From: a virus | Strand: one strand, 5' to 3' | IMG/VR virus record: IMGVR_UViG_3300046534_001341 | Span: 1 to 64,000 of that record | Length of the DNA stretch: 64,000 bases | In this document: piece by piece, positions 39,087-62,448 of the stretch | How positions within the stretch are numbered: position 1 is the stretch's first letter | Layout of the letters: every line of letters begins with the position of its first letter | Notes under the pieces: model-generated | Databases searched by the model: none | Told to the model about the DNA's origin: nothing | What the model saw: the letters and a program-made list of their open reading frames with translations, nothing else | Program-made: the position numbers and the translations under genes

Positions 39087-39356
39087 TTACACAGTACACC
39101 TCATCAACAATGCTTTCAACCTCAAATCTTTGCCATCCACGAACTTAACCTTCTGCGGGTTATCCCCCAAAAATTTGTATATTAGATCACTCACGAAAGT
39201 ACACCCCACCTTTTCATGACCCAACTCAGCACGAATAAGGTAGTGGGGTAACTCAACTTGTTCCTGACTACGCATCATCTGCTTCATAAGCTCAACCGTG
39301 TAATACCTGTCAGGCTTACTCCCCTCATAAACGAATCTTACATAATCATCACTCAT
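39087..39356 (-). CDS. small early protein with LKALL C-terminal tail (minus strand)
   Basis: The ATG at 39356 overlaps the stop of the upstream gene; a longer in-frame start lies inside that gene. The 89-residue product ends RLKALLMRCTV, which fits the LKxLL tail seen in many plus-strand early proteins. It is followed by a clear terminator. The function is unknown. Confidence 0.55.
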   Translation of the reverse strand: MSDDYVRFVYEGSKPDRYYTVELMKQMMRSQEQVELPHYLIRAELGHEKVGCTFVSDLIYKFLGDNPQKVKFVDGKDLRLKALLMRCTV

Positions 39357-39745
39357 GCCACCACCGCCTTCATAACCGCGGTACCGTAATCCGCTGCCCA
39401 ATCAATATTCGTAATAGGCTCAGGCTTCGGCCCAACAAGCAAAGCTCTCAACTTAATAACCTTATCTTCCTCATACCTAACCGCAGTCACAACGTCACTA
39501 TCAACAAGGTTATTGGCCCAAGTCCTACCACGTTGACTCTCAGGCAAAACAACAATCATAGGTACCGACTCACCATGTGCCGCCCAAATAGCATTAGCAA
39601 CACCTGAACCATTAAGCTTAACAACGACATATCTCTCCACACCATCTGGGTGTAAGAACATAATAGTGCCACGAGGTTGAATCATAATAATCATCCGCCA
39701 AGGAGAAGGGACGACCATCATACACCTACAACTAAGATTCGCCAT
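39353..39745 (-). CDS. small early protein with internal KLRALL motif (minus strand)
   Basis: The start is uncertain: ATG 39745 has GGAG 12 bases upstream, and GTG 39763 and later ATGs are possible. The product has a beta-rich middle (GVERYVVVKLNG, MIVVLPESQRGR) and, about 25 residues from the end, KLRALLVGPK, close to KLKALIGPK in the 47846-48319 protein. It is the first gene of a two-gene minus-strand operon inside the plus-strand early region. Confidence 0.5.
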   Translation of the reverse strand: MANLSCRCMMVVPSPWRMIIMIQPRGTIMFLHPDGVERYVVVKLNGSGVANAIWAAHGESVPMIVVLPESQRGRTWANNLVDSDVVTAVRYEEDKVIKLRALLVGPKPEPITNIDWAADYGTAVMKAVVA

Positions 39746-39897
39746 AGACAGTATTCGCTCCACATAATTTTTTAGAAAAACTATTTTGAGATTTGTGATA
39801 ATTGGGTATGAGTTCAGTACTGATGGAACGGGAACCGTAAATCGGAAGTACCCCCCCTACTTCAATCCTAATACCTATCGCCTACCCACCCTCGTCA

Positions 39898-45253: not shown

Positions 45254-45445
45254 ATGCCTGATTCAAAGATAGCTCATAACTTCGTTCGTGGTATTACATA
45301 CAATTGTGTTAAGTACGATGCCACGTATGCCCAGTACCTAAACCGCATTGGTGAGTTGTACTCAGGTCTAGCCATAAATGAAACCACCTACAAAGAACTA
45401 AAACTAAAGAGATTTCTTGGAGTTATGCCATGTCGAGGTCAGTAG
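45254..45445 (+). CDS. family A small protein 1, LKxLL-type tail
   Basis: First of four adjacent small proteins with a shared plan: R-x-x-Y-x-C-V-x-Y-D-x-x-Y-x-x-Y-L in the middle and an ending Y-K-E-L-K-L-K-R-F-L-G. The 63-residue product overlaps the next gene by 16 bases. The tail fits the recurrent LKxLL pattern. The function is unknown. Confidence 0.6.
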   Translation: MPDSKIAHNFVRGITYNCVKYDATYAQYLNRIGELYSGLAINETTYKELKLKRFLGVMPCRGQ

Positions 45446-45624
45446 CTGAAAGCGCCCATAGGCGTTGTGTCTCCTATCAAGGGTACGAACAAGCAGTCGA
45501 TCGTAAGAACTCCCGATGGGATAGAGACACCATCGACGACACCCTATCAATGGAAGAGTTCATTCAGGTGGGTAAAGAAATCCGCTTAAAACAACTACTT
45601 ACGAGGCACCAAAATGGTATCTAA
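45430..45624 (+). CDS. family A small protein 2, LKQLL tail
   Basis: This 64-residue basic protein contains HRRCVSYQGYEQAVDRK, an acidic helix and the tail GKEIRLKQLLTRHQ. The layout matches its neighbours (Arg/Tyr-rich front, E-x-x-L-K-x-L-L end). The codons of the tail also provide GAGG, a ribosome site pointing to the ATG at 45614. Confidence 0.6.
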   Translation: MSRSVAESAHRRCVSYQGYEQAVDRKNSRWDRDTIDDTLSMEEFIQVGKEIRLKQLLTRHQNGI

Positions 45625-45635
45625 GCTTGTATTCC

Positions 45636-45857
45636 ATGGGTAATGGTTGTCACACAGCTAAGAAGATAGAGCTGCAAGGTAGGACTGATTACATCCGTGC
45701 TGGGTATAAATACTCCACTTACCTACGCATGATCACCTTACGTAATATCGGGCGCCATCCTCCTCAAATAATCACACCTATAACTGAAGAGGACTACAAC
45801 CAGCAGCTCAAAGAGCACGCACTCAAGGAACTGATCTCATGCAACGTGACCCAGTAA
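45636..45857 (+). CDS. family A small protein 3, LKELI tail
   Basis: Start uncertain: ATG 45636 lacks a ribosome site and an in-frame TTG lies at 45627, while an ATG at 45614 with GAGG upstream opens only nine codons (ending at 45643) in a different frame. That suggests a frameshift near the start or an unusual initiation. The 73-residue product has GYKYSTYLRMITLRNIGRHP, an EEDYNQQLKEHALKELI end and overlaps the next gene. Confidence 0.5.
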   Translation: MGNGCHTAKKIELQGRTDYIRAGYKYSTYLRMITLRNIGRHPPQIITPITEEDYNQQLKEHALKELISCNVTQ

Positions 45858-46009
45858 ATGTAAGCCTGTGGCGGTCGTACGCTGATTTCAGGCACTCGTA
45901 CTACACGTACACCAAAGCCCTCAGTTCTCATTGCACACCAGTTTCTGAAGAAGTGTACAATCAACGACTCAAAGAAAACAAACTCAAATCACTTTTAATA
46001 GGTAAATAA
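45839..46009 (+). CDS. family A small protein 4, LKSLL tail
   Basis: An ATG at 45839 opens 56 codons: WRSYADFRHSYYTYTKALSS, then EEVYNQRLKENKLKSLLIGK. The EE-x-YNQ-x-LKE-x-x-LK segment is nearly the same as in the preceding protein, which establishes paralogy. AGGA precedes the start and the gene overlaps its neighbour, so it is very likely translated. Confidence 0.65.
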   Translation: MQRDPVNVSLWRSYADFRHSYYTYTKALSSHCTPVSEEVYNQRLKENKLKSLLIGK

Positions 46010-46010
46010 C

Positions 46011-46202
46011 TTGAAACAAATATGGATATCACAAGATATTGTTAATAGTACTATCACAGCAGGTATCGAAAGCCGTAAGGGTAAGATCGTCAGGGAGAAG
46101 GTGTTCCCTGACACCACCCCAAAACAGATAGTCGATGAATGGGCCAACAAGGAAATCGACATGATGGAGTTACTAATGCTGGAAAACCAAAGTGACACCT
46201 GA
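46011..46202 (+). CDS. family B small protein 1, TTG start
   Basis: The TTG at 46011 follows AGGTAAATAAC and is the only reasonable start. The 63-residue product has a K-V-F-P-D-T-T-P-K-Q-I-V-D-E-W segment and ends NKEIDMMELLMLENQ, a weaker form of the common tail. It belongs to a row of proteins with an (I/V)-x-x-W helix before the tail. Confidence 0.55.
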   Translation: MKQIWISQDIVNSTITAGIESRKGKIVREKVFPDTTPKQIVDEWANKEIDMMELLMLENQSDT

Positions 46203-46437
46203 CCCAACTGAGTTCTGGAGGGATATTACATTGAAATCAGCAGAAGGATACACCTGGGGATGGGAGAAGCAGCGTAGAAACTACGAGGCCACCATCCACT
46301 TCGATGGCTTTCAAGTCATAACCAAGAACTTCCCTATAGGTACTGAGCCAGATGTAATGGCTGCATGGGCCAAAGGGGAGATCCAAGTACGTAAACTCAA
46401 AGACCTTATCGCGCCTCCGGCACGTTCCAACCCGTAA
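46192..46437 (+). CDS. family B small protein 2, LKDLI tail
   Basis: GTG start overlapping the previous gene. The 81-residue product has GYTWGWEKQRRNYEATIHF near the front, KNFPIGTEPDVMAAWAKGE, then VRKLKDLIAPP. The pattern GY-x-W, beta strands, K-x-F, W helix, LKxLI is shared with 46957, 47207 and 47846. Confidence 0.6.
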   Translation: MTPDPTEFWRDITLKSAEGYTWGWEKQRRNYEATIHFDGFQVITKNFPIGTEPDVMAAWAKGEIQVRKLKDLIAPPARSNP

Positions 46438-46462
46438 TTTAACCTAAATAACTGAGTAACAA

Positions 46463-46741
46463 ATGATCCAAATTAATGAAGTATTCTCATGTGAACGCGA
46501 CAAATACCAATGGTTGCTTCACCAAAAGAAACCTAAGGGTAAACACCCAATCACAGGTGAGTTATCCACAAAAGAAAGCACCTCTGTCACATACCACTCA
46601 AACCCTGAGCAGATCATGAATGTGGTGATAAATCGCAGCTTAGGTAAATGTGAGTCACTTGTAGAGATGCGTGACATGCTCGTAGAGAGCCGTGAGATGG
46701 TCTCTAAGGCATGTGCGGCTATAAGTAAAGCCAATACATAG
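46463..46741 (+). CDS. early protein, possibly diverged family B
   Basis: This 92-residue protein has YQWLLHQKKPKGKHPITGE near the front, like the GY-x-W motif of its neighbours, and a helical C-terminus without the LKxLL tail. The function is unknown. Confidence 0.5.
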   Translation: MIQINEVFSCERDKYQWLLHQKKPKGKHPITGELSTKESTSVTYHSNPEQIMNVVINRSLGKCESLVEMRDMLVESREMVSKACAAISKANT

Positions 46742-46754
46742 GTGAGGTATAAAT

Positions 46755-46964
46755 ATGGCCAGATACTGGGTTAAATTCAAACGTATCAAGAAGACTAATC
46801 GAGTGATGGCAAGCTTGGTTATGCCCACTAATGCAGGGCCAAAAGTCATGGCCCAGAAAAGCTTCCATGCTTACCAAACCTCTTATGGGACTATTGACCC
46901 TAACGTCCAGAAATGGGCAAGTCCCTTAGTGAACATGTATCGGCTGCTATCTCCACATGGGTGA
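46755..46964 (+). CDS. small basic family B-like protein
   Basis: The 69-residue product opens ARYWVKFKRIKKTNRVMASL, carries a QKSFHAYQTSYGTI segment and ends VQKWASPLVNMYRLLSP, keeping the W helix and a degraded tail. It overlaps the next gene by eight bases. Confidence 0.5.
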   Translation: MARYWVKFKRIKKTNRVMASLVMPTNAGPKVMAQKSFHAYQTSYGTIDPNVQKWASPLVNMYRLLSPHG

Positions 46965-47220
46965 GCTAAGTGAGATCTACCCTAGGGTACACAGAGCAAT
47001 TGCAGCACCTTGGGAACCGAAGTACACGAGAGGGTTCGCTTGGGTAATACCTCCTCACACCAATCTTAGTGAGGTGAAAGTAATCATCCGAGTCAACTCA
47101 AAACAACAACGAGAAGAGACATTCAACGCTACAGACATAAAAGCTATAGCGAAGTGGATTAACTCACAGACCAAAATCTTAAGGTTAGTCATGCCGGGGG
47201 TGTCTAGTGACAGGAGATAA
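46957..47220 (+). CDS. family B small protein
   Basis: This 87-residue product has GFAWVIPPHTNLSEVKVIIR, then a DIKAIAKWINSQTKILRLVMPG end. GF-x-W, central strand, W helix and LRLVM match the family B plan. ATG overlaps the previous gene. Confidence 0.55.
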   Translation: MGELSEIYPRVHRAIAAPWEPKYTRGFAWVIPPHTNLSEVKVIIRVNSKQQREETFNATDIKAIAKWINSQTKILRLVMPGVSSDRR

Positions 47221-47488
47221 CACACAACCTGATAAGATAGTTGGGCGGATAAGATTACATACCCAACCAATTAATGGATTCTACTGGTCTATGTTCCACG
47301 AGCACCCAGATGGTGTGTACGTAATGGCTTCTTACTCAGACCCAATTGTAGTTGTAATACAGCTTTACGACAATACTAAGACATTCCCTGCCTCTACACC
47401 ATGTAGTGACATTGAGGGTTGGGTACTAAAAGAAACCAAGAAGATAAACCTGAAGAATTTACTTTTTACTTGTACCAAAACCAATTAA
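47207..47488 (+). CDS. family B small protein, LKNLL tail
   Basis: GTG start overlapping the previous gene. The 93-residue product has GFYWSMFHEHPDGVYVMAS, a CSDIEGWVLKETKKINLKNLL end. The tail and the W helix are clear. Confidence 0.6.
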   Translation: MTGDNTQPDKIVGRIRLHTQPINGFYWSMFHEHPDGVYVMASYSDPIVVVIQLYDNTKTFPASTPCSDIEGWVLKETKKINLKNLLFTCTKTN

Positions 47489-47537
47489 TTATAAACCCAA
47501 AGGTGGCTACGGCAACCGAAACATAAAGGTATAAACC

Positions 47538-47846
47538 ATGAATAAATTAGCATTAGTAATAACCATTGCGGCTATGGTTGGATGCGCATCTGCACCACGT
47601 CAATTGCCTGTATTGGTAGATGGTAACAACTATCTAGCTATGGGCACCGACTGCTCGTATGGCATGATGAGCCAAAATGTACCTAATCAGCTTGACTGCT
47701 ACAACGAAGACAAAAAGTACACAGGCAATCGTAAGCCTATGACAGCCAAAGAGCTTAAGGACTTCTGGGCAATACGAGACCAGAACATCACAGACCGTCA
47801 GGTTGATCGATTGAAAACACAGCTACGTAATGGCCGAGGACGTTAA
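47538..47846 (+). CDS. lipoprotein of unknown function
   Basis: A Lys-containing start, hydrophobic segment and M-V-G-C lipobox (Cys17) make a good signal peptidase II site, so the 102-residue product should be a lipoprotein. The mature part has two further Cys (DCSYGM, LDCYN) that could form a disulfide. An early phage lipoprotein may alter the host envelope or block superinfection. It overlaps the next start by one base. Confidence 0.7.
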   Translation: MNKLALVITIAAMVGCASAPRQLPVLVDGNNYLAMGTDCSYGMMSQNVPNQLDCYNEDKKYTGNRKPMTAKELKDFWAIRDQNITDRQVDRLKTQLRNGRGR

Positions 47847-48319
47847 TGCTAGAGATTACGCAGGAAATTAATTACTACTGTAAAGATGTTAATGGGTACT
47901 CATGGGGGGTGACTCAGGAACACAACCGAGCCAGCCCCATCAAGGTTGAGATTCATACCAAGCCCAGTATAAAAAAGACATTCATCTCCAGCACCCCTAG
48001 AAATAGGATCGTAGATTGGATCACCCAAGAGACCGCTAAGCTCAAGCTAAAAGCCTTGATAGGCCCTAAGGCCAAAGTAGAGTTGGGAAACCCTTGGGAG
48101 GGTTTAGTGAAACTTTCAGGGCAGATGAATCAGGTTAAGACTTGCGGGAGAAGAGTAGGAGTCATCATCTTTGATAGTATAGATAACTACTACGAATCCA
48201 ACGCCACCCAGTACGTATCCAGCACCAACATACCTGAGTCCAACCAAGCCGCCGCCTTTGATAAACAAACCGGTAAAAACAAATCCAAAACTAAATACAA
48301 CAGCCCATACGGGCCATAG
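47846..48319 (+). CDS. family B protein with C-terminal extension
   Basis: The first 75 residues follow the family plan: GYSWGVTQEHNRASPIKVEI, a NRIVDWITQETAKLKLKALIGPK end. A further 80 residues, polar and Asn/Ser/Lys-rich, continue after the motif, so the LKALI is internal here. Its KLKALIGPK is very like KLRALLVGPK in the minus-strand 39353-39745 protein. Confidence 0.6.
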   Translation: MLEITQEINYYCKDVNGYSWGVTQEHNRASPIKVEIHTKPSIKKTFISSTPRNRIVDWITQETAKLKLKALIGPKAKVELGNPWEGLVKLSGQMNQVKTCGRRVGVIIFDSIDNYYESNATQYVSSTNIPESNQAAAFDKQTGKNKSKTKYNSPYGP

Positions 48320-48327
48320 GAACCACC

Positions 48328-48597
48328 ATGGAACAGTTTATTGTAGTCATAGTTATAGGGATCTTCTTCTACTACCTAGGATCTAGGGATGGTAAGAAGG
48401 ATCAGTACAAAAAGGACAAGGCCATGATGGGGGTTATGGAATATGCCACCATCAAAGCATTTAGGCAAACTAGAGAAAAATGTTTATTGAACGAAATTTT
48501 GATTGCAAAGATAGCCTTACTAGAGAAAAACAAAAAAGAAATAGATGAAGTCAGTGGTAAATCATCAATTAATACAGGCAAGACCAATGCTGAATAA
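48328..48597 (+). CDS. small membrane-anchored coiled-coil protein
   Basis: This 89-residue protein has an N-terminal transmembrane helix (FIVVIVIGIFFYYLG), then a Lys-rich cytoplasmic part with a coiled-coil helix (ILIAKIALLEKNKKEIDE). The function is unknown. Confidence 0.55.
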   Translation: MEQFIVVIVIGIFFYYLGSRDGKKDQYKKDKAMMGVMEYATIKAFRQTREKCLLNEILIAKIALLEKNKKEIDEVSGKSSINTGKTNAE

Positions 48598-48931
48598 AAA
48601 CATACACATAAAAACTGGGATGCTACTCGTAGTAAAGAAAACCTTCTGGACTACTGCTGCCCACAAGGTTGATACTTTCCACGTGAAGTATCAAATACCT
48701 AAAGGTACCATCCTTGAAATACGTTACCCGTATGAGTGGCACTTCCGCTTTGGAGACAATTGCTGGGCACAAGTACCAGCAGAAACACTGGTTAAGTGTT
48801 GTGAGTTCTTTGGTGTGATCCATGAAGATGTAAGGTTCAATAACAATAATAGCCTACCTGAAATCATGGAAGAAAATCTGTACTACCCTGCATCTGAATA
48901 TAAATTGGTTCGTTCCGAATCTGCAAAATAG
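48590..48931 (+). CDS. early protein before RNAP1
   Basis: ATG 48590 overlaps the preceding stop and is preferred to a start at 48545. The 113-residue product contains aromatic-rich strands (VKKTFWTTAAHKV, YEWHFRFGDNCWAQV). No family recognised. Confidence 0.55.
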   Translation: MNKNIHIKTGMLLVVKKTFWTTAAHKVDTFHVKYQIPKGTILEIRYPYEWHFRFGDNCWAQVPAETLVKCCEFFGVIHEDVRFNNNNSLPEIMEENLYYPASEYKLVRSESAK

Positions 48932-48942
48932 TTGTTCTCTTC

Positions 48943-48972
48943 CGGCTAACGCCGTAGGGGGCAACGTCCCCC
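48943..48972 (+). promoter_or_regulatory. TAAC-loop hairpin 6 with second hairpin, upstream of RNAP1
   Basis: CGGC-TAAC-GCCG, then TAG running into GGGGG-CAACGT-CCCCC. It lies 35 bases from the RNAP1 start. Placing one copy exactly before the RNAP genes would let the virion polymerase switch on the next polymerase. Confidence 0.55.
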
Positions 48973-48991
48973 ACACTTTAAGGAAATATCC

Positions 48992-49972
48992 ATGGAAATC
49001 AAGAACCTAGAACAAATGTGCATTGAAGACCGCTATTCTCGTAGCAACATCCGTGCTCGTGTCCTTCTGGACATCATGGATAGTGTTGAAACCGATCTTG
49101 CTATAGCCTTCGACAAGGCAGCACAGGCCATTCACAACTATGCCTACGGAAAAGTATCACAGACTTATTGGTCATCCAAACTGGTGCGTGTACAGCACCT
49201 ACGTAACCTATTAGATAAAAAAATGACCATCAATGATCTTGTACTTGAGATCTTAATTATCGTTATGCCTATGAAGACCGCTCAGCCTATACAGGGGCCG
49301 TGTGGTCGCTTAGGTGGTATGTTAGGTTACGGGGATATATTCGATGGCGTAAAGACGGCTGCGGAGCTACTAGCAGTAGTGTGCTTCTCAGACCTTTACG
49401 ACATCATTCCAGCTAGGGAAAGCGAGGGCGACAGTATGTCTATAATGCCACGTTACTCCCTAGAAAATGAAACCAATCAGTTCATTTCAGACACCAAGTA
49501 CCTACCTCCTATGATCTGTAAGCCTGAAGTATTGACTCGCAACTTTCAGAGTGGGTACCTAACCATAGAAGACTCAGTGATCCTGAAGGGTGTGAACCAC
49601 CATGAAGAGTATGTATCTCTGGATGTGCTCAACATGGCTAATGGTACCGCGCTAGCCTTGGACACTAACATCTTACGTATGAAGGAAAAGCCTAATAAGC
49701 CGTTCGATTCACTACATAAAGATGGGTCTGTACCAACAGTTAAAGTGATCTTGGAACGTGAGAAGAACTTTTTGGAACTGAAGGCAGCATCAAAAATTGT
49801 GTACAAAGAGTTACTAGATAACGGCAATGAGTTCTTCAACTGCCATAAATTCGACTCTCGTTCACGCAAGTACTCTCAGGGGTACCACGTCCACATTCAG
49901 GGAAGTGAGTATAAGAAAGCCATTATTAACCTGGCTACGGAGGAAGTGATCACAGATGGTATTATCTTATGA
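48992..49972 (+). CDS. RNAP1 subunit of heterodimeric N4-type RNA polymerase II
   Basis: This 326-residue protein corresponds to the N-terminal half of a T7-like polymerase. Its end carries the DxxGR-equivalent motif FDSRSRKYSQGYHVHIQG, followed by KAIINLA, matching the T7 segment before motif A. In N4, gp15 and gp16 split the enzyme at the same place and together transcribe middle genes. The usual Gly of DxxGR is Ser here. The gene is longer than N4 gp15 (about 270). A hairpin element lies just upstream. Confidence 0.88.
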   Translation: MEIKNLEQMCIEDRYSRSNIRARVLLDIMDSVETDLAIAFDKAAQAIHNYAYGKVSQTYWSSKLVRVQHLRNLLDKKMTINDLVLEILIIVMPMKTAQPIQGPCGRLGGMLGYGDIFDGVKTAAELLAVVCFSDLYDIIPARESEGDSMSIMPRYSLENETNQFISDTKYLPPMICKPEVLTRNFQSGYLTIEDSVILKGVNHHEEYVSLDVLNMANGTALALDTNILRMKEKPNKPFDSLHKDGSVPTVKVILEREKNFLELKAASKIVYKELLDNGNEFFNCHKFDSRSRKYSQGYHVHIQGSEYKKAIINLATEEVITDGIIL

Positions 49973-50187
49973 AAATGCCTGACAGACCTTTCGGTACATT
50001 CCCCTACGACATCTTCAATGTGATTACAGATCATGAAGGGGAGTTCGTACAGCACGCCGTGGCCAGACACTTCACCATGTCCCTGAGTAATGCCCAGCAA
50101 TGGGTTGATTACCATGAATATTCAATTAAGCGACTAAAGCTTAGAAAACTCTTGGAAAGTAAAAATGGAAGAACCAAGGCTACCTAA
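49969..50187 (+). CDS. family C small protein 1, LRKLL tail
   Basis: A 72-residue protein overlapping the RNAP1 stop by four bases: PDRPFGTFPYDIFNVIT, a helix with HFTMSLSNAQQWVDYH, and a KRLKLRKLLESK tail. It is paralogous to the following gene (F/IPxDI, H-x-T/D helix, W-x-x-x, tail). Its position between the two RNAP subunits hints at a link to the polymerase. Confidence 0.6.
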   Translation: MKMPDRPFGTFPYDIFNVITDHEGEFVQHAVARHFTMSLSNAQQWVDYHEYSIKRLKLRKLLESKNGRTKAT

Positions 50188-50404
50188 AGGCATGATCCCA
50201 CCTGATATCTACAGGATTATTATAGGCCGTATTGACGGTGTTCATGCAGTAACGGCTTTGTGTCATTACACAGATCTAAACGAAGAAGAGGCATCAGATT
50301 GGTTTGCCTTCTATAAGTGGGCAGCAGCAAATCGTGAAGCCCGACTAGAACAAGCACACAAAGAAAACCAACTCAAAATATTACTAAGACTCAAAAGGAA
50401 ATAG
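50165..50404 (+). CDS. family C small protein 2, LKILL tail
   Basis: A 79-residue protein overlapping its paralogue: PKGMIPPDIYRIIIG, ALCHYTDLNEEEASDWFAFY, then KENQLKILLRLKRK. The gene lies two bases from the RNAP2 start, and its tail codons carry the AGGA ribosome site of RNAP2. Confidence 0.65.
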   Translation: MEEPRLPKGMIPPDIYRIIIGRIDGVHAVTALCHYTDLNEEEASDWFAFYKWAAANREARLEQAHKENQLKILLRLKRK

Positions 50405-50406
50405 CA

Positions 50407-51402
50407 ATGCAAACATTCTCAGGTTTAGATTATACAAAGATCGCCGTAGCAAATGCCTTCGGCAATGATAAAGATGTCTGGGATGATCGCATTGATTGGG
50501 CTGAAAAGTTCCTTGAGAAGCAGTCGGCTCATACGATGCGTAAAGCAGATGAGCCATTCTTAATGAGGAAGGCTGTGAACGCTTACAACGATGCAGTGGC
50601 TGGTAAGGCTACTGGTTACATAATGGGCCTAGATGCCACGTCCTCAGGGCTTCAGATAATGGCTGCCTTGAGTGGTTGCCTGACTACTGCCCGTAACGTG
50701 AATCTTATCAATACCGGTTCAAGAGAAGATATATACCTGAAAGTAACCAAGCGCATGCAGGAACTGTGCCCTCACCTAAACATCACACGTAACCTTCTAA
50801 AGCACCCAATCATGACGTTCTTCTACAACTCTAAGGCGCAGCCTGAAGGTGTATTTGGAAAGGACACCCCTGAGCTAGATGCTTTCTACGAAGTACTGCA
50901 TGAACTCCTACCGGGAGCCATGGAAGTAATGCGCATGATTCAGGCATGTTGGAATCCTGAAGCCACTGAACATAAGTGGACCGCACCTGATGGACACGTA
51001 TCTATACCTTTGGTTATGGACTACGTAGACACCAAGATCGAAGTAGAAGAGTTAGGTAAGGCTACATTCACCCACCGCGCCAAGATCGTTATGTCTGATG
51101 AGCGTGGCTTATCATTACCGGCAAATGTGAACCAATCGATTGATGCTTACATCGTTCGTATGATGTATCGCATGGCTCATAGTCAGGGTTGGGAAATCCT
51201 AACAGTACATGACGCATTCTTCTGCACACCGAATAATGTGAATCGTATGCGTATGAACTACAACAAGATCTTATCTAAGATCGCCTCATCCAACATGCTT
51301 TGTGACATCTTGAAAGAGATCACAGGCAATAAGGGAACTATCAAGAAGATGTCTACTACACTTCCTGGCTTGATCCTTAAAGCAAACTATTCACTTAGCT
51401 AG
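50407..51402 (+). CDS. RNAP2 subunit of heterodimeric N4-type RNA polymerase II (catalytic)
   Basis: The 331-residue protein carries the T7-type catalytic motifs: motif A GLDATSSGLQ with D76, motif B LLKHPIMTFFYNSK with K132 and Y140, and motif C TVHDAFF with D269. It is the catalytic palm-and-fingers part, equivalent to N4 gp16, and needs RNAP1 to act. It is separated from RNAP1 by two family C genes. Confidence 0.93.
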   Translation: MQTFSGLDYTKIAVANAFGNDKDVWDDRIDWAEKFLEKQSAHTMRKADEPFLMRKAVNAYNDAVAGKATGYIMGLDATSSGLQIMAALSGCLTTARNVNLINTGSREDIYLKVTKRMQELCPHLNITRNLLKHPIMTFFYNSKAQPEGVFGKDTPELDAFYEVLHELLPGAMEVMRMIQACWNPEATEHKWTAPDGHVSIPLVMDYVDTKIEVEELGKATFTHRAKIVMSDERGLSLPANVNQSIDAYIVRMMYRMAHSQGWEILTVHDAFFCTPNNVNRMRMNYNKILSKIASSNMLCDILKEITGNKGTIKKMSTTLPGLILKANYSLS

Positions 51403-51441
51403 GAGCTAACCACGGAAAAAGAACGACATATTAGAATCTGT

Positions 51442-51470
51442 TAAGTACGTTAACAATAAACTTTATGGGG
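51442..51470 (+). repeat. direct repeat, copy 1 (gene leader)
   Basis: A 29-base leader that ends in the ribosome site TATGGGG recurs at 51661-51689 with 27 matches. It contains AATAAACTTTA, AT-rich as expected for N4-type middle promoters, so it may be a promoter plus ribosome site copied with the gene. Confidence 0.6.
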
Positions 51471-51471
51471 A

Positions 51472-51663
51472 ATGAAAATGGATGATTACACAGTAAAACG
51501 GATGGGTCTTATATTAGCTGTTCAAGCAGAAGTCGAGGGCATGAAAGCTGCTAACCTAGTGAGTGATTTACAAGAGTATGGCGGAGGGCATTTCGATGAA
51601 AAAGCCGAAGAAATACGTAATATAGTTAACGCTAATGACCACCAGTTAGATTTAATGGGCTAA
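51472..51663 (+). CDS. small acidic protein
   Basis: The 63-residue product (ATG 51478 is an alternative start) is helical and acidic (LILAVQAEVEGMKAANLVSD). It sits between two copies of a repeated leader. The function is unknown. Confidence 0.5.
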   Translation: MKMDDYTVKRMGLILAVQAEVEGMKAANLVSDLQEYGGGHFDEKAEEIRNIVNANDHQLDLMG

Positions 51664-51689
51664 GAACGTAAACAATAAACTTTATGGGG
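51661..51689 (+). repeat. direct repeat, copy 2 (gene leader)
   Basis: Second copy of the 51442-51470 leader, immediately upstream of the 51696 ATG. Confidence 0.6.
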
Positions 51690-51695
51690 TACAAA

Positions 51696-51980
51696 ATGAG
51701 TGATACAACACAATTAAACAAACCTCTTTGGCATCAGAACCTGACATATGGGCAGGTGGAGGCCGAAGCAGAAAAGGACTATCCTAAGGTTATATACAAT
51801 CTGCATGAGGATTGTTTATGCCTACGCGAAGAGCTGGCGGCTTTGAAAGCTGATCGCGGGCTGCTCGTCACTGCGCTTTTATCAATTGTAGATTCTAATA
51901 GCTTCGATCCAGATGATGGGCGCTATATGTCAAATATTGCAGAACTAGCATTAAAAAAGGCGGCGACAAATGGAGTCTAG
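51696..51980 (+). CDS. small phage protein of unknown function
   Basis: ATG 51696 follows GGGG in the repeated leader. The 94-residue product has a KPLWHQNLTYGQVEAEAEKD start and a helical EELAALKADRGLLVTALLSI middle ending LALKKAATNGV, a pattern of generic phage accessory proteins. The function is unknown. Confidence 0.55.
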   Translation: MSDTTQLNKPLWHQNLTYGQVEAEAEKDYPKVIYNLHEDCLCLREELAALKADRGLLVTALLSIVDSNSFDPDDGRYMSNIAELALKKAATNGV

Positions 51981-52047
51981 ACAGGTGATTACAGCGGTAG
52001 TGCTGAATGCTCAAAAGCTCACAAACCAGATAGAGGAAAAATCATGA
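51970..52047 (+). CDS. 25-residue peptide, possible
   Basis: An ATG overlapping the previous gene opens 25 codons that end overlapping the next ATG, so coupling could allow translation. The peptide (VVLNAQKLTNQIEEKS at its end) has no recognised role; it may be only a coupling leader. Confidence 0.35.
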   Translation: MESRQVITAVVLNAQKLTNQIEEKS

Positions 52048-52241
52048 AAGCAAAAGAACTACGTGATGAATTCTGGGATGATCATGCTTGCCCCTCTTGG
52101 GGACGGTTAGGTACAACAGCCACGCAGAACGATTACCCTGAAGAAGTCCGAATGGCTTGGACAGACTTCTTATACTTCTCACACGATGCAGGAAACATCT
52201 CTGCAGAAGTCATGGACAACACCTTACTGGCTCCTGAATAG
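52044..52241 (+). CDS. small acidic protein
   Basis: The 65-residue product is rich in Trp, Asp and Glu (LRDEFWDDHACPSWGRLG, VRMAWTDFLYFSHDAG). AGAGGAA lies before the ATG. It is the last gene before a strong terminator. Acidic small proteins of this kind can be DNA mimics, but nothing confirms it. Confidence 0.55.
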   Translation: MKAKELRDEFWDDHACPSWGRLGTTATQNDYPEEVRMAWTDFLYFSHDAGNISAEVMDNTLLAPE

Positions 52242-52282
52242 GGCCGCCTCCGTCGGCTGTTTGCCCTGTTCGTAATAGAAGT

Positions 52283-52318
52283 CTCGCTAGCGAGGAAAAA
52301 GTTATGAAACCGATAGGC
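52283..52318 (+). promoter_or_regulatory. palindrome and five-codon leader ORF
   Basis: A perfect 12-base palindrome (CTCGCTAGCGAG, 52283-52294) lies in the 168-base gap after 52241. It is followed by GAGGAAAAA and an ATG with only five codons. It may be a remnant gene start or an operator-like site; the rest of the gap is the terminator below. Confidence 0.3.
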
Positions 52319-52358
52319 TAAAAACCTAAAACACCCAAAAGCCTACCATAGGCAAACG

Positions 52359-52394
52359 AGCCCCTAACCTTAACCGGTTGGGGGCTTATTTTTT
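52359..52394 (+). terminator. rho-independent terminator
   Basis: AGCCCCTAACC and GGTTGGGGGCT pair around a six-base loop with TATTTTTT following. It separates the RNAP2 transcription unit from the Cys-rich gene array. Confidence 0.85.
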
Positions 52395-52409
52395 GCCAAA
52401 GGAGGCAAT

Positions 52410-52649
52410 ATGAACGAATTAGATCTTATGAATTTACTGTGGGTAGTGTGGTTTATTTTATGCACCATCCTATCCTTGGGCTTAGCTATTTATACTAAGT
52501 GCGGGGGTGACGCACTGTTATTGATTTTAATGGCTGGTTTCTTTGGGCCGTTTATATGGGTGCTAATAGGTTTGGCCACTCTCATATTATTGATGGCGTT
52601 TTTAGGGGAGCAACTCCTTAAATTCCTAAGGAGGGGGCATGACCAATAA
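52410..52649 (+). CDS. two-helix membrane protein
   Basis: This 79-residue protein has two long hydrophobic helices (about residues 9-27 and 34-66) and a basic end. GGAGGCAAT before the ATG is a near-ideal ribosome site. The gene overlaps the first Cys-rich gene. It may anchor or partner the following proteins. Confidence 0.6.
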   Translation: MNELDLMNLLWVVWFILCTILSLGLAIYTKCGGDALLLILMAGFFGPFIWVLIGLATLILLMAFLGEQLLKFLRRGHDQ

Positions 52650-52854
52650 GGCAGTATTAGACGAAGATGAGTGCATCGTGTGCACGCACAATAAACATGC
52701 AAAAGGCATAATATGGAGGTTGAGGGTGAACAACATTATGACAGATAAGCCTGTTGAAGGTGTAAGAAGAGAATTCGTATATTGCAGTTATTGTGATGCG
52801 GGCAAAGAACTAGCCAAACAGGAGCTACTACGTGAGCTACTTATCAAAAAATAA
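52639..52854 (+). CDS. family D Cys-rich protein 1, LRELL tail
   Basis: The 71-residue protein opens the array: C-x2-C (ECIVCTH), a basic loop, then FVYCSYCDAGKELAKQELLRELL. Family plan: C-x2-C, 25-40 residues, Y/F-C-x-[YWF]-C, G-x-x-L/M-x-K/E, helix and LKxLL tail. Four Cys would make a zinc finger. AAGGAGG is upstream. Confidence 0.65.
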   Translation: MTNKAVLDEDECIVCTHNKHAKGIIWRLRVNNIMTDKPVEGVRREFVYCSYCDAGKELAKQELLRELLIKK

Positions 52855-53026
52855 CCCTAGAAAGATCTGCCCAGTATGCAAGGATACAGGTAAGACCTGG
52901 AAAAACCTACCTAGCGGTGTGCTAGATAAAAGTCCTAGAGGGGTTACATACTGCTGGTGCCCTGTAGGTGAGAAAATGGAAAAAAAGAAAGAACTCCGTG
53001 ACCTGCTTATGGGAGTTAAATCATGA
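52832..53026 (+). CDS. family D Cys-rich protein 2, LRDLL tail
   Basis: GTG start with GGAG eight bases upstream. KICPVCKDTGKTWKN, then YCWCPVGEKMEKKKELRDLLMG. The CPVCKDTG front resembles DnaJ-type Cys repeats. 64 residues, overlaps both neighbours. Confidence 0.65.
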   Translation: MSYLSKNNPRKICPVCKDTGKTWKNLPSGVLDKSPRGVTYCWCPVGEKMEKKKELRDLLMGVKS

Positions 53027-53283
53027 CAGAAGGGTGTAAGGCGTGTGGTTTTGGGTTGCTACCGAAAGAGTATAAAAAATTTGAAGAGCTTCAGCACGAG
53101 CAGGGGTCGACCATCCCAATGCAGTATTGTTTTTGTGCTAATGGACAGAGACTAGCCAAAGAGGGTCGGCTACGTAATCTACTAACAGGAGAAAAATCGA
53201 ATCAATATACGGTACCTGACGACGTAGATTACAAAGATGCCGAGGATAAGGTAAGGGATTGGTTGGACTTAGGGGTTATATAG
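53023..53283 (+). CDS. family D Cys-rich protein 3, LRNLL motif
   Basis: 86 residues: CKACGFGLLP, YCFCANGQRLAKEGRLRNLLTGEK, then 24 further acidic residues, so the tail motif is internal here as in 47846-48319. Confidence 0.65.
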   Translation: MTEGCKACGFGLLPKEYKKFEELQHEQGSTIPMQYCFCANGQRLAKEGRLRNLLTGEKSNQYTVPDDVDYKDAEDKVRDWLDLGVI

Positions 53284-53480
53284 TGGGTTACTTAGGTAGG
53301 AAATATAACTATAAAGAGCAGTGCAGGACATGCGGGGGCAAGGGTAGATACCGTGAACGTAGAGCCCCTGATCCTAATGACCCCCATAGGGGTCGTAACC
53401 CAACTCAACTATGCCATTGCCCTGCAGGTGAACAAAAGGCTCGTGATGAGGCTTGGGATCGGATACAGAATGATAGTTAG
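53283..53480 (+). CDS. family D Cys-rich protein 4, tail lost
   Basis: A GTG overlapping the previous stop gives 65 residues with CRTCGGKGRYRER, then LCHCPAGEQKARDEAWDRIQ. The Cys core is intact but the helix ends without LKxLL. An upstream in-frame TTG is also possible. Confidence 0.6.
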   Translation: MGYLGRKYNYKEQCRTCGGKGRYRERRAPDPNDPHRGRNPTQLCHCPAGEQKARDEAWDRIQNDS

Positions 53481-53658
53481 ACATGTTGAATGCAGGGCCT
53501 GTACTAAAGATGCTTGGGACTTACCCAGATGTGTCATAAACCGTACAGCACCTGACGGGTCGTTTAGACGAGCCAGTTCTTTTTGCCTGTGTGCGGTAGG
53601 TAGGCACCTACTTCAGGTTTACTCACTCAAACAATTATTGAAAGGAAAGAGGATATGA
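53470..53658 (+). CDS. family D Cys-rich protein 5, LKQLL tail
   Basis: ATG 53470 gives 62 residues: ECRACTKDAWDLPRC, then FCLCAVGRHLLQVYSLKQLLKGK. The tail codons also contain GGAAAGAGG, the ribosome site of the next gene. Confidence 0.6.
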   Translation: MIVRHVECRACTKDAWDLPRCVINRTAPDGSFRRASSFCLCAVGRHLLQVYSLKQLLKGKRI

Positions 53659-54104
53659 ATGACCTAATACTGTGGGCAGTAGTGACGGCAGTGATGTCAG
53701 CGCCTGTAATACTACTCATGAAAATATATGAGTGGAAAGCTTGCGTGCTCTTTGGGCACCACCCCAGTGAGTGGACGTGGGCGCAGGATGGGTATAACTC
53801 CCCTGTGCCTAATGAAGAACGGATCTTGTTCAGCCAGATGCACGGGCATTGTCGCCACTGCAAAGTGGAGGTACGTACGTTTAGTGAGCAGCATAGACTT
53901 ACAGCCTATTACACCAAAGAGCAGTGTGCCCAGTACGGGTATGAATTCGTTGATAAGAAAGAATACGAACTCAAGAAACTGCTTCTAGGTAAACGTAACG
54001 ACGATGACCTATTCACTAGAAGTAACCAGATAAATTCAGGCATGCCTATGTTGGGCACAACAGGAAGGGTGATCAAAGTCGGCTTCCCTAGGAAGCTTAT
54101 ATGA
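53655..54104 (+). CDS. membrane-anchored His/Cys protein with LKKLL motif
   Basis: The 149-residue product has an N-terminal transmembrane helix (ILWAVVTAVMSAPVILLM), then C-V-L-F-G-H-H and, 35 residues on, HGHCRHCKVEVRTF, a likely zinc site. KKEYELKKLLLGKR follows near residue 115, then a 35-residue polar end. It is not a simple family D member but carries the same tail motif. Confidence 0.6.
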   Translation: MNDLILWAVVTAVMSAPVILLMKIYEWKACVLFGHHPSEWTWAQDGYNSPVPNEERILFSQMHGHCRHCKVEVRTFSEQHRLTAYYTKEQCAQYGYEFVDKKEYELKKLLLGKRNDDDLFTRSNQINSGMPMLGTTGRVIKVGFPRKLI

Positions 54105-54250
54105 AACAAACAACCAAAAAGTGTCCCAAGTGCGGCAACACTCATCTGATCTTACTACAATCCCAGAACCTCAAGGTCTGTATGAACCATAAACCTAAAG
54201 CAGTCCTAATTCCTTGGTTCTTGGATAAAGGACAAAGGCCTTTACTATGA
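54101..54250 (+). CDS. 49-residue zinc-ribbon protein
   Basis: ATG 54101 overlaps the previous stop and the frame ends overlapping the next ATG. KCPKCGNTHL, then KVCMNHK gives a C-x2-C and C-x2-H knuckle pair of a small zinc ribbon. No LKxLL tail. Likely translated because of double coupling. Confidence 0.6.
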   Translation: MKQTTKKCPKCGNTHLILLQSQNLKVCMNHKPKAVLIPWFLDKGQRPLL

Positions 54251-54450
54251 GAAAAGCTGTCACGTTTAACCCACACTGGGTGGGTGAGGAGCCTGCTTGG
54301 GACATCCGTTTATTAAATGGGGATCACCACCGCAGCGTTACTAAAACTACTATTTTAGCTGTAAGCACTAGAAGACATGGCACCAGTGTATTGGAGTGCG
54401 ATGTTCAAGATTACGGCACACACCACTTAAAAATAGCAGCGCAGAAATGA
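54247..54450 (+). CDS. small protein in Cys-rich array
   Basis: The 67-residue product lacks Cys pairs and the tail. It is beta-rich and basic (FNPHWVGEEPAWDIRLLNG, KTTILAVSTRRHG). It overlaps both neighbours. The function is unknown. Confidence 0.5.
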   Translation: MRKAVTFNPHWVGEEPAWDIRLLNGDHHRSVTKTTILAVSTRRHGTSVLECDVQDYGTHHLKIAAQK

Positions 54451-54632
54451 GCAAGTGCGGTATGTGCTCTCATGATGCTGTACATACCGCGACAGGTATA
54501 TTACCTCCCCTGCATGATTGGGGTACATTTACCTTTTGTCGTTGGTGTGTGAAGGGCGCCCAACTCAAAAAAGAACAGGCACTTAGGCAACTACTTAGAG
54601 GAGACCCTCCATGTGCAAAACCAGAGATATAA
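54447..54632 (+). CDS. family D Cys-rich protein 6, LRQLL tail
   Basis: ATG 54447 overlaps the preceding stop. KCGMCSHDAVHTATG, then FCRWCVKGAQLKKEQALRQLLRGD. 61 residues. The tail codons contain AGAGGAG, the ribosome site of the next gene, so protein motif and ribosome site share bases. Confidence 0.65.
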   Translation: MSKCGMCSHDAVHTATGILPPLHDWGTFTFCRWCVKGAQLKKEQALRQLLRGDPPCAKPEI

Positions 54633-54877
54633 GTAAACCTGAAGAATGCGTAATGTGCTCAGAGGGTTGTGACCCAGCCGCCACAGGCAGAAGACCCCAC
54701 AAAAAGTTCAGTACTGAATTCTGCGTTTGGTGTGATCTAGGTATACAGTTGGAAAAGGAACATAACCTCAAGAAATTACTTCTCAATGATAAGAAACCCC
54801 GAACAATTGCCGATCTTATACGCAAACAAATGAATGCAAAAGGGGCGGCCTCCGGCCGCTTTGTTCCCAAAAATTAA
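54611..54877 (+). CDS. family D Cys-rich protein 7, LKKLL motif
   Basis: 88 residues: ECVMCSEGCDPAATG, then FCVWCDLGIQLEKEHNLKKLLLND, with a 25-residue basic extension ending in a short GAASGRFVPKN. It is the last of the array and lies 21 bases before the AAA+ gene. Confidence 0.65.
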   Translation: MCKTRDISKPEECVMCSEGCDPAATGRRPHKKFSTEFCVWCDLGIQLEKEHNLKKLLLNDKKPRTIADLIRKQMNAKGAASGRFVPKN

Positions 54878-54898: not shown

Positions 54899-55948
54899 AT
54901 GCAGCAGATTACAGCAGTACAAGCACCAGAGTTATTGATGGATGTAATGAAGGCCGGATTGGTTCCGATGATAGTATCATCCCCCGGCATTGGTAAGTCG
55001 TCAATCGCCAAGCAAATTGCAGAAGACCGTAACCTGAAGGTTATTGATTTACGTTTATCTCAGTGTGATCCAAGTGATCTACTTGGTTTTCCCTCAATCA
55101 ATAAAGACAAAACCAAAGCTGGTTATGTACCAATGGATACTTTCCCTATTAAGGGTGATCCAATACCATCACGTACGGTTAATGGTGTAGTCAAACCTTA
55201 CGCAGGCTGGTTACTTTTCTTAGATGAAATGAACTCAGCAGCAAAGTCAGTACAAGCAGCGGCTTACAAAATAGTCTTGGATCGACAAGTTGGCCTACAT
55301 GATCTGCATAAAAGCGTAGCTGTAATGGCAGCCGGTAACCTATCTACGGATAAGGCGATCGTGACTAAACTTGGTACGGCCATGCAATCACGTATGGTTC
55401 ACTTTCACCTACGTGAAGACTTCAAGTCTTGGATGGCATGGGCGGCGACTTCAGGTATTGATTACCGCATCACTTCTTTCTTGAACTTCAAGCCAGAAGC
55501 GTTATTCAATTTCTCACCTGACCACAATGACTGCACTTTCGCATGTCCTCGTACATGGGAATTTGTGTCTAAGATCGTGATTAATTGGAAAGAGATTGGT
55601 TCTGATAAATCACCTTTAATCGGGGGCACAATCGGTGAAGGTATGGGTCGTGAATTCCTAGCCTTCTGTCAGGTGTTTGGGGAACTCCCAACAATCAGTG
55701 AGATAGTTAACAACCCTATGGGTACTAAGCTGTCTGACGAGCCTACAGTACGTTATGCCTTAACAGGTATGATTGGGTCACACATCACCCCAAATAACTC
55801 AGATGCGTTAATGAAATTTGTTGATCGTATGCCTGTGGAATTTCAAATCATCACGCTTCAATCAGCACTATTACGTGACCCTAGCCTATTGTCTCAAGGC
55901 TCTGCATTCGATGCTTGGGTTACCAAACACGCTTCACGTTTAATGTAA
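54899..55948 (+). CDS. AAA+ ATPase, MoxR-like (N4-type)
   Basis: The 349-residue protein has Walker A SSPGIGKSS (K33) and Walker B LLFLDEMNSA (D109, E110), with an AAGNL sensor segment around residue 143, as in MoxR/CbbQ AAA+ proteins. The vWA/metallopeptidase-like gene two genes downstream is its usual partner (MoxR-vWA pair). N4-like phages keep this pair next to the RNAP genes, but its role is not settled; it may remodel host or replication complexes. Confidence 0.88.
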   Translation: MQQITAVQAPELLMDVMKAGLVPMIVSSPGIGKSSIAKQIAEDRNLKVIDLRLSQCDPSDLLGFPSINKDKTKAGYVPMDTFPIKGDPIPSRTVNGVVKPYAGWLLFLDEMNSAAKSVQAAAYKIVLDRQVGLHDLHKSVAVMAAGNLSTDKAIVTKLGTAMQSRMVHFHLREDFKSWMAWAATSGIDYRITSFLNFKPEALFNFSPDHNDCTFACPRTWEFVSKIVINWKEIGSDKSPLIGGTIGEGMGREFLAFCQVFGELPTISEIVNNPMGTKLSDEPTVRYALTGMIGSHITPNNSDALMKFVDRMPVEFQIITLQSALLRDPSLLSQGSAFDAWVTKHASRLM

Positions 55949-55952
55949 GGTA

Positions 55953-56609
55953 ATGAATATGACGACTCTCGCTGGATTCTTAAAAGAAGTAGAGAACCAT
56001 AAATTAACAGTGGTTCGGGATGACGGTTTGAATCGTCATATTCGTTTAGCAGAACCAGGCACAGGTAACTGTCAATTTGATTTAATTACTTGGCCTGGTC
56101 ATCTGTGTGTCACTGGGGATTGTGGAACTTATGTATTCCAAAGGACCAATGACATGTTTGAGTTCTTCCGCCAGAACCAGAAAGGCGAGAAGGAACTGCG
56201 CATCAATAGTGGATACTGGTCTGAGAAACTACTCAGCACATGTAATCACGGTGGTGTTAAAAAATTCTGTACAGATTTATTCAAGAAACAGTTGGATGAC
56301 TACATAGAAAACCACTGGGAATTTGAAGATGACGACGACGAAGAGCTTAAGGCTGTCGAAGTTAAAGCAAAAGTTTTAGCAGAAGTAAATGAAGAAATTG
56401 TCACCATACTTGATATGGGTAAAGACATGGCCTTGAACGCAGCCATGACTTTCAAGTCCGAATATGGGCACACTTTTGAAGATTTCTGGGATTACGAATT
56501 CGACAAGTATACCCACCACTTTTTGTGGAACCTATACTCCATTGCATGGGGTATTCAACAATATGACCTCAGCAAGGAATCAGAATGTCCTACTCCAAGC
56601 AAGACTTAG
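55953..56609 (+). CDS. conserved N4-type protein between ATPase and vWA genes
   Basis: This 218-residue, acidic protein has a beta-rich front (DDGLNRHIRLAEPGTGNCQF) and helical back with a DDDDEELK patch. Its position between the MoxR and vWA partners suggests a third component of that complex. No motif recognised. Confidence 0.6.
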   Translation: MNMTTLAGFLKEVENHKLTVVRDDGLNRHIRLAEPGTGNCQFDLITWPGHLCVTGDCGTYVFQRTNDMFEFFRQNQKGEKELRINSGYWSEKLLSTCNHGGVKKFCTDLFKKQLDDYIENHWEFEDDDDEELKAVEVKAKVLAEVNEEIVTILDMGKDMALNAAMTFKSEYGHTFEDFWDYEFDKYTHHFLWNLYSIAWGIQQYDLSKESECPTPSKT

Positions 56610-57754
56610 AAACAGCTTTTGATAAAGCAAAAATTGGTTTGATGACTAAGCACAACAGCATATTCATCACGACCATCCTATTCTCCCTGAAGCATACGTG
56701 GGACGAATCCTGCAAGACTGCTGGGACGAATGGGGTCGATTTGGTAATAGCGCCCACATGGTTCATGAGTATGACTGCAGGAGCCCGTATGGGCCTACTA
56801 GCGCATGAAGCATGGCACGTTGCTTTCAACCACATGACCCGTGGTGACAGCTACGAGCATAAGGAATACAACATTGCTGCTGATCATGTAATTAATGTGA
56901 TGCTGAAGGATGCTAGTTACGAGCTCCCTGAGGGGGGTTACGGAGACTTTAAATACCGTGGTTGGAGTACCGATGAAGTGTATAAAGATCTGCAATCTAA
57001 CCCAAAGCCGCCGCCACCTAAAGGTGGTGAAGGTTCAGGGGGCTGCGGTCAGGACATTAAGTACCCAAGTGATGAAAAAGACAAAGATGGTAAGGGTAAT
57101 ACCCAAAAACAAAAAGACAACCTTCAGCGCAAGATAGAAGACACCCTGATCAAAGCCACCACCCAGTCGAAAATCATGGGTGACGCTGCTGGTACGATCC
57201 CAGGAGACATCTCCCGAATGCTGGATGAACTTCTTAATCCAAAATTGGATTGGAAGACTTTGTTGAGCAATTATATGAATGCCTTCGCTAAAGAAGACTA
57301 TTCGTATCAGCGCCCCAACAAACGATTTATGCCTGATTTCTTTTTACCTGGTATGCACAGTGAAAGTCTCGGTGAGATTTGTTTTGCATGTGACGCCAGT
57401 GGTTCTGTATCGCAGGCAGATTTTACTGCGTACTTGAATGAAATTAATTACGTGAAGGAAGAGTTGAATCCCGTCCTCACTACCATTATCGATTTCGATA
57501 CTCGCATTAATAATGTTCACTCTCTCGGACAAGATGATTCGATTGAAGGTATTAAATTTACAGGTGGTGGCGGTACAAACCTCACTCCAGTATTTGATTA
57601 CTACAGTGACCGCAAGCCTGTTGTGCTAGTGGTCTTTTCGGATTTGTACTGTTCAATGATTAAGAATGATCCAGGCTACCCAGTTTTATGGGTGTGCGTG
57701 AACAACCCACGGGGCCAAGTAAATTTCGGCACCATAATTCATATTGACCTTTAG
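56585..57754 (+). CDS. vWA-domain protein with metallopeptidase-like HExxH
   Basis: The 389-residue protein has an N-terminal metallopeptidase-like domain with LLAHEAWHVAFNH (H74, E75, H78), and a C-terminal von Willebrand A-like domain whose MIDAS starts DASGS (D270, S272, S274), a layout like DUF2201. A Gly/Pro/Lys-rich linker is at about residues 145-185. MoxR ATPases act with vWA proteins, so it should work with 54899-55948. The start overlaps the preceding gene by 25 bases. Confidence 0.85.
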   Translation: MSYSKQDLETAFDKAKIGLMTKHNSIFITTILFSLKHTWDESCKTAGTNGVDLVIAPTWFMSMTAGARMGLLAHEAWHVAFNHMTRGDSYEHKEYNIAADHVINVMLKDASYELPEGGYGDFKYRGWSTDEVYKDLQSNPKPPPPKGGEGSGGCGQDIKYPSDEKDKDGKGNTQKQKDNLQRKIEDTLIKATTQSKIMGDAAGTIPGDISRMLDELLNPKLDWKTLLSNYMNAFAKEDYSYQRPNKRFMPDFFLPGMHSESLGEICFACDASGSVSQADFTAYLNEINYVKEELNPVLTTIIDFDTRINNVHSLGQDDSIEGIKFTGGGGTNLTPVFDYYSDRKPVVLVVFSDLYCSMIKNDPGYPVLWVCVNNPRGQVNFGTIIHIDL

Positions 57755-61931: not shown

Positions 61932-61932
61932 T

Positions 61933-62448
61933 GTGACTGAATTTAAACCCCAGTTTAGGGCACAACTTCTTAGTATTCTCATGCAGGCTTTATTCGTAAA
62001 GCAGCATGAAGAAATTAAGAAGGAAATCAACGCAATTATTTTGGATAATAGTTACAACTCTTCTCCAAGAGCCTTTGCTTTTCGTTATAAAAACAAAGCT
62101 TATATCGATGAGGGGCTGCCTAATTACACCCCAAAGATTGAACTGCACGTAGACCATCGAGCCACCATGGATAATATCCTAGTGCGGCAACAGCACATCG
62201 AGATGGAGTACATTCGTATAGATGCGTACATCACTCGTTGCATGAATTTATGTAAAACAGTTTCAGATCTGTACGTAACGATACCTGAGCAGTTACATAA
62301 GTTTTTCCCATCTACTATCACCACCCACAAAAGTAGAGGTAACAGCCCACTGATTTTAAGTGAAGCTGAGGCCACTCGTTTTGCGCGGGAAAATGAAGTA
62401 GCTCATGCAAGTTTGATGCGACGCCTATTAACATTAATTATTATTTAG
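61933..62448 (+). CDS. conserved protein between helicase and DNA polymerase
   Basis: The GTG at 61933 is preferred because GGAGG lies five bases upstream; an ATG at 61921 is also in frame. The 171-residue product is helical with FRAQLLSILMQALFVKQHEE and basic C-terminal half. The N4 gp38 position suits it. No function assigned. Confidence 0.55.
   Translation: MTEFKPQFRAQLLSILMQALFVKQHEEIKKEINAIILDNSYNSSPRAFAFRYKNKAYIDEGLPNYTPKIELHVDHRATMDNILVRQQHIEMEYIRIDAYITRCMNLCKTVSDLYVTIPEQLHKFFPSTITTHKSRGNSPLILSEAEATRFARENEVAHASLMRRLLTLIII

Follow-up and report, generated by a model that had tools for sequence, protein, structure and literature searches.

Many small early proteins encoded in the virus DNA analysed here, a window of 64,000 nt taken from an IMG/VR contig of 76,845 bases (record IMGVR_UViG_3300046534_001341), carry a common LKxLL tail at or near the C-terminus, on bodies that are unrelated in sequence. 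To judge from its split RNAPII genes (gp15-like and gp16-like), together with a gp24-like AAA+ protein and a gp25-like DUF2201 protein, the virus belongs to the N4-like phages (Schitoviridae). The tail is specified at the protein level, it is not peculiar to this phage but a wider Schitoviridae feature with a lineage-specific consensus, and it is most concentrated in the small genes between the two RNAPII genes, RNAP1 and RNAP2. Being small, terminal, constant in wording within a genome, different between genomes and present on unrelated bodies, it is best read as behaving like a docking motif, and we consider it marginally probable that it is a short helical C-terminal motif by which these proteins would bind one common partner.

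The tail array of the window

An initial annotation of the window, made from the letters and their translations, had counted at least eighteen tailed small products, a figure that we reached as 15 open reading frames (ORFs, named here by their first position) with a strict L[KR]xL[LI] motif plus three looser cases (LKRFL in 45254, LRLVM in 46957 and MELLM in 46011). All 14 tail strings that it gave for positions 45254-54877 are present in translated ORFs, as is RLKALL in a minus-strand protein at 39087-39356. The features are listed below; lengths are in amino acids (aa).

45254-45445, + strand: small early ORF, loose tail KLKRFLG, core 45404-45418
45430-45624, + strand: small early ORF, strict tail RLKQLL, core 45586-45600
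45627-45857, + strand: small early ORF, strict tail ALKELI, core 45822-45836
45839-46009, + strand: small early ORF, strict tail KLKSLLIGK, core 45983-45997
46011-46202, + strand: small ORF, loose tail MMELLM, weak relative of the 46192/47207/47846 group
46192-46437, + strand: small early ORF, strict tail KLKDLI, core 46396-46410
46957-47220, + strand: small ORF, loose tail ILRLVM, core 47179-47193
47207-47488, + strand: small early ORF, strict tail NLKNLL, core 47450-47464, body related to 47846
47846-48319, + strand: ORF with internal strict tail KLKALI, core 48047-48061, then an 85-aa extension
49969-50187, + strand: small ORF between RNAP1 and RNAP2, strict tail KLRKLL, core 50140-50154
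50165-50404, + strand: small ORF between RNAP1 and RNAP2, strict tail QLKILL, core 50372-50386
52639-52854, + strand: Cys-knuckle (CxxC...CxxC) small ORF, strict tail LLRELL, core 52828-52842
52832-53026, + strand: Cys-knuckle small ORF, strict tail ELRDLL, core 52994-53008
53023-53283, + strand: Cys-knuckle small ORF, strict tail RLRNLL, core 53170-53184, plus extension
53259-53480, + strand: Cys-knuckle paralogue without LxxLL tail
53470-53658, + strand: Cys-knuckle small ORF, strict tail SLKQLL, core 53626-53640
53655-54104, + strand: N-terminal membrane segment and CxxC, strict tail ELKKLL, core 53970-53984, plus extension
54447-54632, + strand: Cys-knuckle small ORF, strict tail ALRQLL, core 54582-54596
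54611-54877, + strand: Cys-knuckle small ORF, strict tail NLKKLL, core 54767-54781, plus extension
39087-39356, - strand: small ORF ending RLKALLMRCTV
39353-39763, - strand: ORF with KLRALLVG, 32 aa from its end

Chance composition does not reproduce this frequency. When L[KR]xL[LI] was sought within the last 30 residues and each C-terminus was shuffled, 11 of the 29 small ORFs between 45 and 55 kb carried the motif against 0.28 expected (500 shuffles, maximum 3), so that an LxxLL-type C-terminal motif stands far above shuffle on the small early ORFs of the window and composition was rejected as its source. The rest of the window was near chance (1/39 small ORFs vs 0.17 expected), and the strict pattern was not found at the ends of proteins longer than 200 aa. 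The motif is non-terminal in four of the 15 strict ORFs (47846, 53023, 53655 and 54611), where between 36 and 90 residues separate its start from the end of the protein; in the case of 47846 it lies at residue 68, and the extension that follows is rich in N, S and K and is possibly the product of a fusion or a frameshift.

The bodies had been sorted into four families by the initial annotation, which proved too few, as 18 bodies stripped of their tails fell into 14 phmmer clusters; its view that the tail is common to bodies unrelated in sequence is thereby borne out. Six of the tail proteins of the window have Cys pairs and one has a membrane segment. The last 21 aa of 45627 and of the next ORF, 45839, are 62% identical while their N-terminal parts are unlike, and over 51 aa 54611 and 54447 share 43% identity. 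No informative family came out when the tail proteins were scanned against Pfam, PHROGs, PADLOC and the PDB, a match to phrog_4881 being accounted for.

Tails in related phages and their position

Among uncultured contigs, where gene calling followed a simple longest-ORF rule, LKxLL tails exceeded expectation on the small early proteins of G001 (L126; 9 vs 0.92) and G002 (L088; 5 vs 0.68), and were near chance in six others. Once Vibrio phage 1.026.O had been inspected, a more general pattern, [LIM]xx[LIMV][LIM] within the last 12-14 residues, was defined and then applied elsewhere; PJN101 and contig L228 were tested after it had been fixed, and so was L261 in the analysis of the gap between the RNAPII genes. 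With the depositors' genes, the general pattern was found in 17/32 small proteins of 1.026.O (3.4 expected), 15/24 of 1.097.O (2.2 expected), 23/34 of the cultured Vibrio phage pVa5 (4.2 expected) and 13/31 of another, PJN101 (2.7 expected), counts that were each reached in none of 3000 shuffles, and an N-terminal control was much weaker. A control region of T4 gave 7/42 against 3.4 expected and no LKxLL at all, so a roughly twofold excess of the general pattern is to be taken as ordinary background. The wording of the tail is proper to each lineage: KLKxLLxG in G001, KMxxLLE in Pontosvirinae, KxEELLD in PJN101, FRMALLILG in L228 and FKTxLLLxG in L261. The bodies are unrelated in sequence in these genomes too, with 17 tails on 17 body clusters in 1.026.O and 23 tails on 22 in pVa5.

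The general pattern is unevenly placed in 97 distinct loci that have both RNAPII genes. It was found in 75 of the 195 small ORFs between RNAP1 and RNAP2 (20.3 expected), compared with 173 of 1593 small ORFs elsewhere in the same loci (109 expected); after removal of the main array lineages the gap still gave 46/159 against 16, a remainder that includes the L261 array. The two genes that define the gap in the window are:

48992-49972, + strand: RNAP1, N4 gp15-like RNAPII subunit (phrog_2166, E 2.6e-70)
50407-51402, + strand: RNAP2, N4 gp16-like (phrog_2051, E 9.7e-109; PF00940)

Two observations concern this gap and its borders. In Pseudomonas phage LIT1 (L007 6836-7691) three ORFs lie between RNAP1 and RNAP2 and end in LPADLRAMLVIWSLDQLLE, EPSAIALLAGY and IPKELQALLTIYGL; and the RNAP2 of the window lacks about 80 aa relative to that of most cultured N4-like phages, a short form also seen in Alteromonas phage PT15-A5, which has the nearest cultured RNAP2 (44% identity), and in several uncultured relatives.

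It could be argued that the tail is a by-product of coding, generated by the ribosome site of the next gene or by repeated DNA, and the residues after LL (G/K, E/D) do often overlap a GGAG/AGG site, as the initial annotation had pointed out. Its further statement that L-K-x-L-L is not forced in this way holds as well: the Vibrio phages have 35 small genes with no start in the 25 nt that follow, and 15 of these keep the tail, where the overall shuffle expectation is about 1/9. Codon sharing among identical tail residues was 0.33 in the window, 0.36 in G001 and 0.29 in pVa5, vs 0.27, 0.38 and 0.29 expected from genome codon use; because synonymous codons thus vary about as genome usage predicts, DNA repeats and recent gene conversion were rejected, and since tails also persist without a nearby downstream start, we conclude that the tail is specified at the protein level. 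The by-product explanation is largely refuted and seems to us barely credible. Tails are also better conserved than bodies in orthologues shared by 1.026.O and pVa5, whose last 12 residues are 64% identical where the bodies are 50% identical (tail above body in 12 of 13 pairs), and whose three core tail positions are 82% identical.

Other repeated terminal elements were seen in these phages. About a dozen tandem small ORFs of some 80-100 aa, after the AAA+ region of L095 (14705-18561), share a different C-terminal helix of YEEALxxIDxLIK type. In Pollock-like phages (L004 2477-5926 and L166 3833-8419) there is a run of small Cys-rich early proteins; in Pollock itself several of them have a common N-terminal MNKELxxIL helix and some end in a hydrophobic helix. 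Beyond the window, an ORF of the same contig (G000 65739-66017, L002) has an HNH-like HLHHCHKT motif and a relative in G001 (14098-14400).

Probable docking, its alternatives and candidate partners

The proposal of a shared amphipathic docking peptide made by the initial annotation stands in part: the tail sits on unrelated bodies, is kept at the amino-acid level, is independent of the ribosome site and fits docking, and it is the word amphipathic that fails, as the helical hydrophobic moment of the tails (0.16-0.36) is no higher than that of shuffled tails (0.22-0.38) in four sets. The tail, of general form h-[KR]-[LMT]-x-x-L-[LI] and here LKxLL, would deliver to one common site bodies that may each have a job of their own, and the partner at that site would probably be a phage complex that all these genomes have in common. 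It is possible, and we put it forward tentatively, that this is a plug-in system in which a large and fast-changing set of unrelated small effectors attaches to one hub, perhaps the RNAPII of the phage itself or its replication complex, each effector through a C-terminal helix proper to its lineage, with the pocket of the hub and the tails changing together.

The main rival, which we find rather doubtful, holds that these proteins are paralogues of a single small, rapidly diverging fold or of a few such folds; the tail would be their last helix, kept because it packs on its own domain, and the apparently unrelated bodies would mostly be relatives no longer recognisable as such. The best evidence for it is the AlphaFold2 model of an L228 array protein (overall predicted local distance difference test score, pLDDT, 84.1), which has five strands and a C-terminal helix at residues 67-75; structure searches with it returned nothing from the PDB or BFVD at E<=0.001, the best viral match (E 0.15) being to a protein of Pseudomonas phage Littlefix that is itself uncharacterised. 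Furthermore, seven of twelve L228 bodies cluster, L261 has several related pairs, and in the window the bodies of 46192, 47207 and 47846 are related to one another. The bodies of 1.026.O and pVa5, however, are nearly all separate clusters, with Cys-knuckle and membrane proteins among them; the model of the window's Cys-knuckle protein 52832-53026, weak as a whole (pLDDT 61.9), shows a single continuous helix leaving the second knuckle and running through LL (residues 44-60, pLDDT ~80); and in the gp38 family, described below, a related peptide is often preceded by an apparent linker. A membrane-targeting amphipathic helix of the MinD/FtsA type, which would bring early proteins to the inner membrane as the site of the N4 transcription machinery, would suit a short terminal tail that has lysines in the lineage of the window, and N4 RNAPII and gp2 are in fact tightly membrane-associated in infected cells, where they act in a membrane-bound complex (PMC4496689). 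It was nonetheless rejected as very unlikely in view of the hydrophobic moment; the mean net charge, which gives a less clear answer, varies by lineage, from +2.75 in G001 and +1.9 in the window to -1.7 to -1.8 in the Vibrio phages (-1.8 in pVa5). A degradation or processing tag that curbs the lifetime of early proteins, which the C-terminal place and common hydrophobic patch might suggest, is a shade less likely still: the wording differs between lineages, and a C-terminal degron was rejected since four motifs of the window are internal and not at a free C-terminus.

A related peptide occurs outside the array, in a protein encoded after the helicase:

61861-62448, + strand: N4 gp38-like protein (phrog_4881), of a family that ends in a related conserved peptide, here SLMRRLLTLIII

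In N4, gp38 lies between helicase and DNA polymerase. The loci examined held 110 gp38 homologues, with endings that resemble the tail (e.g. RMVTNLLI, RLTTNLLEDN) and terminal conservation of R 0.67, N 0.71, L 0.81 and L 0.65, where the mean over columns is 0.33; in many members the peptide follows an apparent charged or proline-rich linker, e.g. PDVPDFLKVRLTTNLLEDN. The gp38 of G001 ends KIKLKNLLLG, in the wording of that genome's own array tails, and across 12 lineages gp38 tails matched the array of their own genome over others (permutation p = 0.017, kinship ignored). Because the leucine spacing is off by one residue in most members, this link to the array is suggestive only.

Several results weigh against docking. 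The gp38 leucines, as said, mostly lie one residue further on, and the co-variation with the arrays is driven mainly by G001 and G002. The L228 tail is a confident C-terminal helix (pLDDT ~91-95) of a compact beta domain, as a fold element would be. No tail excess was seen in the cultured N4-like phages PT15-A5, Piffle, phiA41 and D496, and that of N4 is weak; nor did the partner search find a gene confined to tail-bearing genomes. Finally, the ratio of nonsynonymous to synonymous polymorphism (pN/pS) in Vibrio pairs comes to 0.30-0.32 for tails and 0.42-0.75 for bodies, and that of the last 13 residues of non-tail proteins is 0.28-0.47, close enough to the tails that their constraint is itself not special for C-termini there.

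If the tail does dock, RNAPII or its middle-transcription assembly would be our best single guess for the partner, a tentative one prompted solely by gene position; we know of no tail protein that binds RNAPII. After it we would place an AAA+/vWA pair or a host protein, the former encoded in the window as:

54899-55948, + strand: AAA+ (MoxR-like) ATPase, N4 gp24-like, candidate partner, family-conserved
56585-57754, + strand: DUF2201 metallopeptidase/vWA-like protein, N4 gp25-like, candidate partner (PF13203, PF09967)

In a tree of the AAA+ protein, whose deep branches are weak, the tail-bearing lineages do not form one clade. Neither a helicase of this kind nor gp38 is detectable in tail-bearing 1.026.O, so neither can be the universal partner. 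As to the rest of the genome, a 3262-aa ORF at 1586-11374, a candidate for the giant virion RNA polymerase, has homologues in other N4-like contigs, and the window has no near DNA match in the phage collection.

Comparison with known systems

As the initial annotation had supposed, no described tail system was found in the open-access literature on N4-like phages or more widely. Most early genes of phages are small orphans that resist assignment when taken singly, and, if the docking tail is real, dozens of them would be sorted into one functional class with a single partner to seek, which would offer a handle on how early and middle infection are organised in N4-like phages; the tail would also be a sequence rule by which such genes could be annotated when they occur in other Schitoviridae.

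Short terminal peptides that send unrelated proteins to one place are familiar from encapsulin cargo loading and microcompartment encapsulation; the carriers of the tail, however, are early phage proteins, for which no shell or capsid-like partner was identified. LxxLL helical docking motifs have the identical leucine spacing in a predicted helix, whereas the K/R before and around the first leucine of the tails is lineage-specific and no receptor of that type is known. The membrane-targeting helices of MinD and FtsA are likewise short and C-terminal, with both lysines and leucines, but the moment of the tails is not above shuffled and in Vibrio phages they are acidic. The gp38 family shares with the tails a conserved terminal R-x-x-x-N-L-L, among the better conserved stretches of the protein, and differs in that its leucines usually lie one residue further from the K/R; gp38 of N4 itself ends THLIF. 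With N4 RNAPII (gp15/gp16) and its cofactors gp1 and gp2 the likeness is one of position, as the tail genes adjoin and lie between the RNAPII subunit genes in the same early operon; N4 itself has zero genes between gp15 and gp16.

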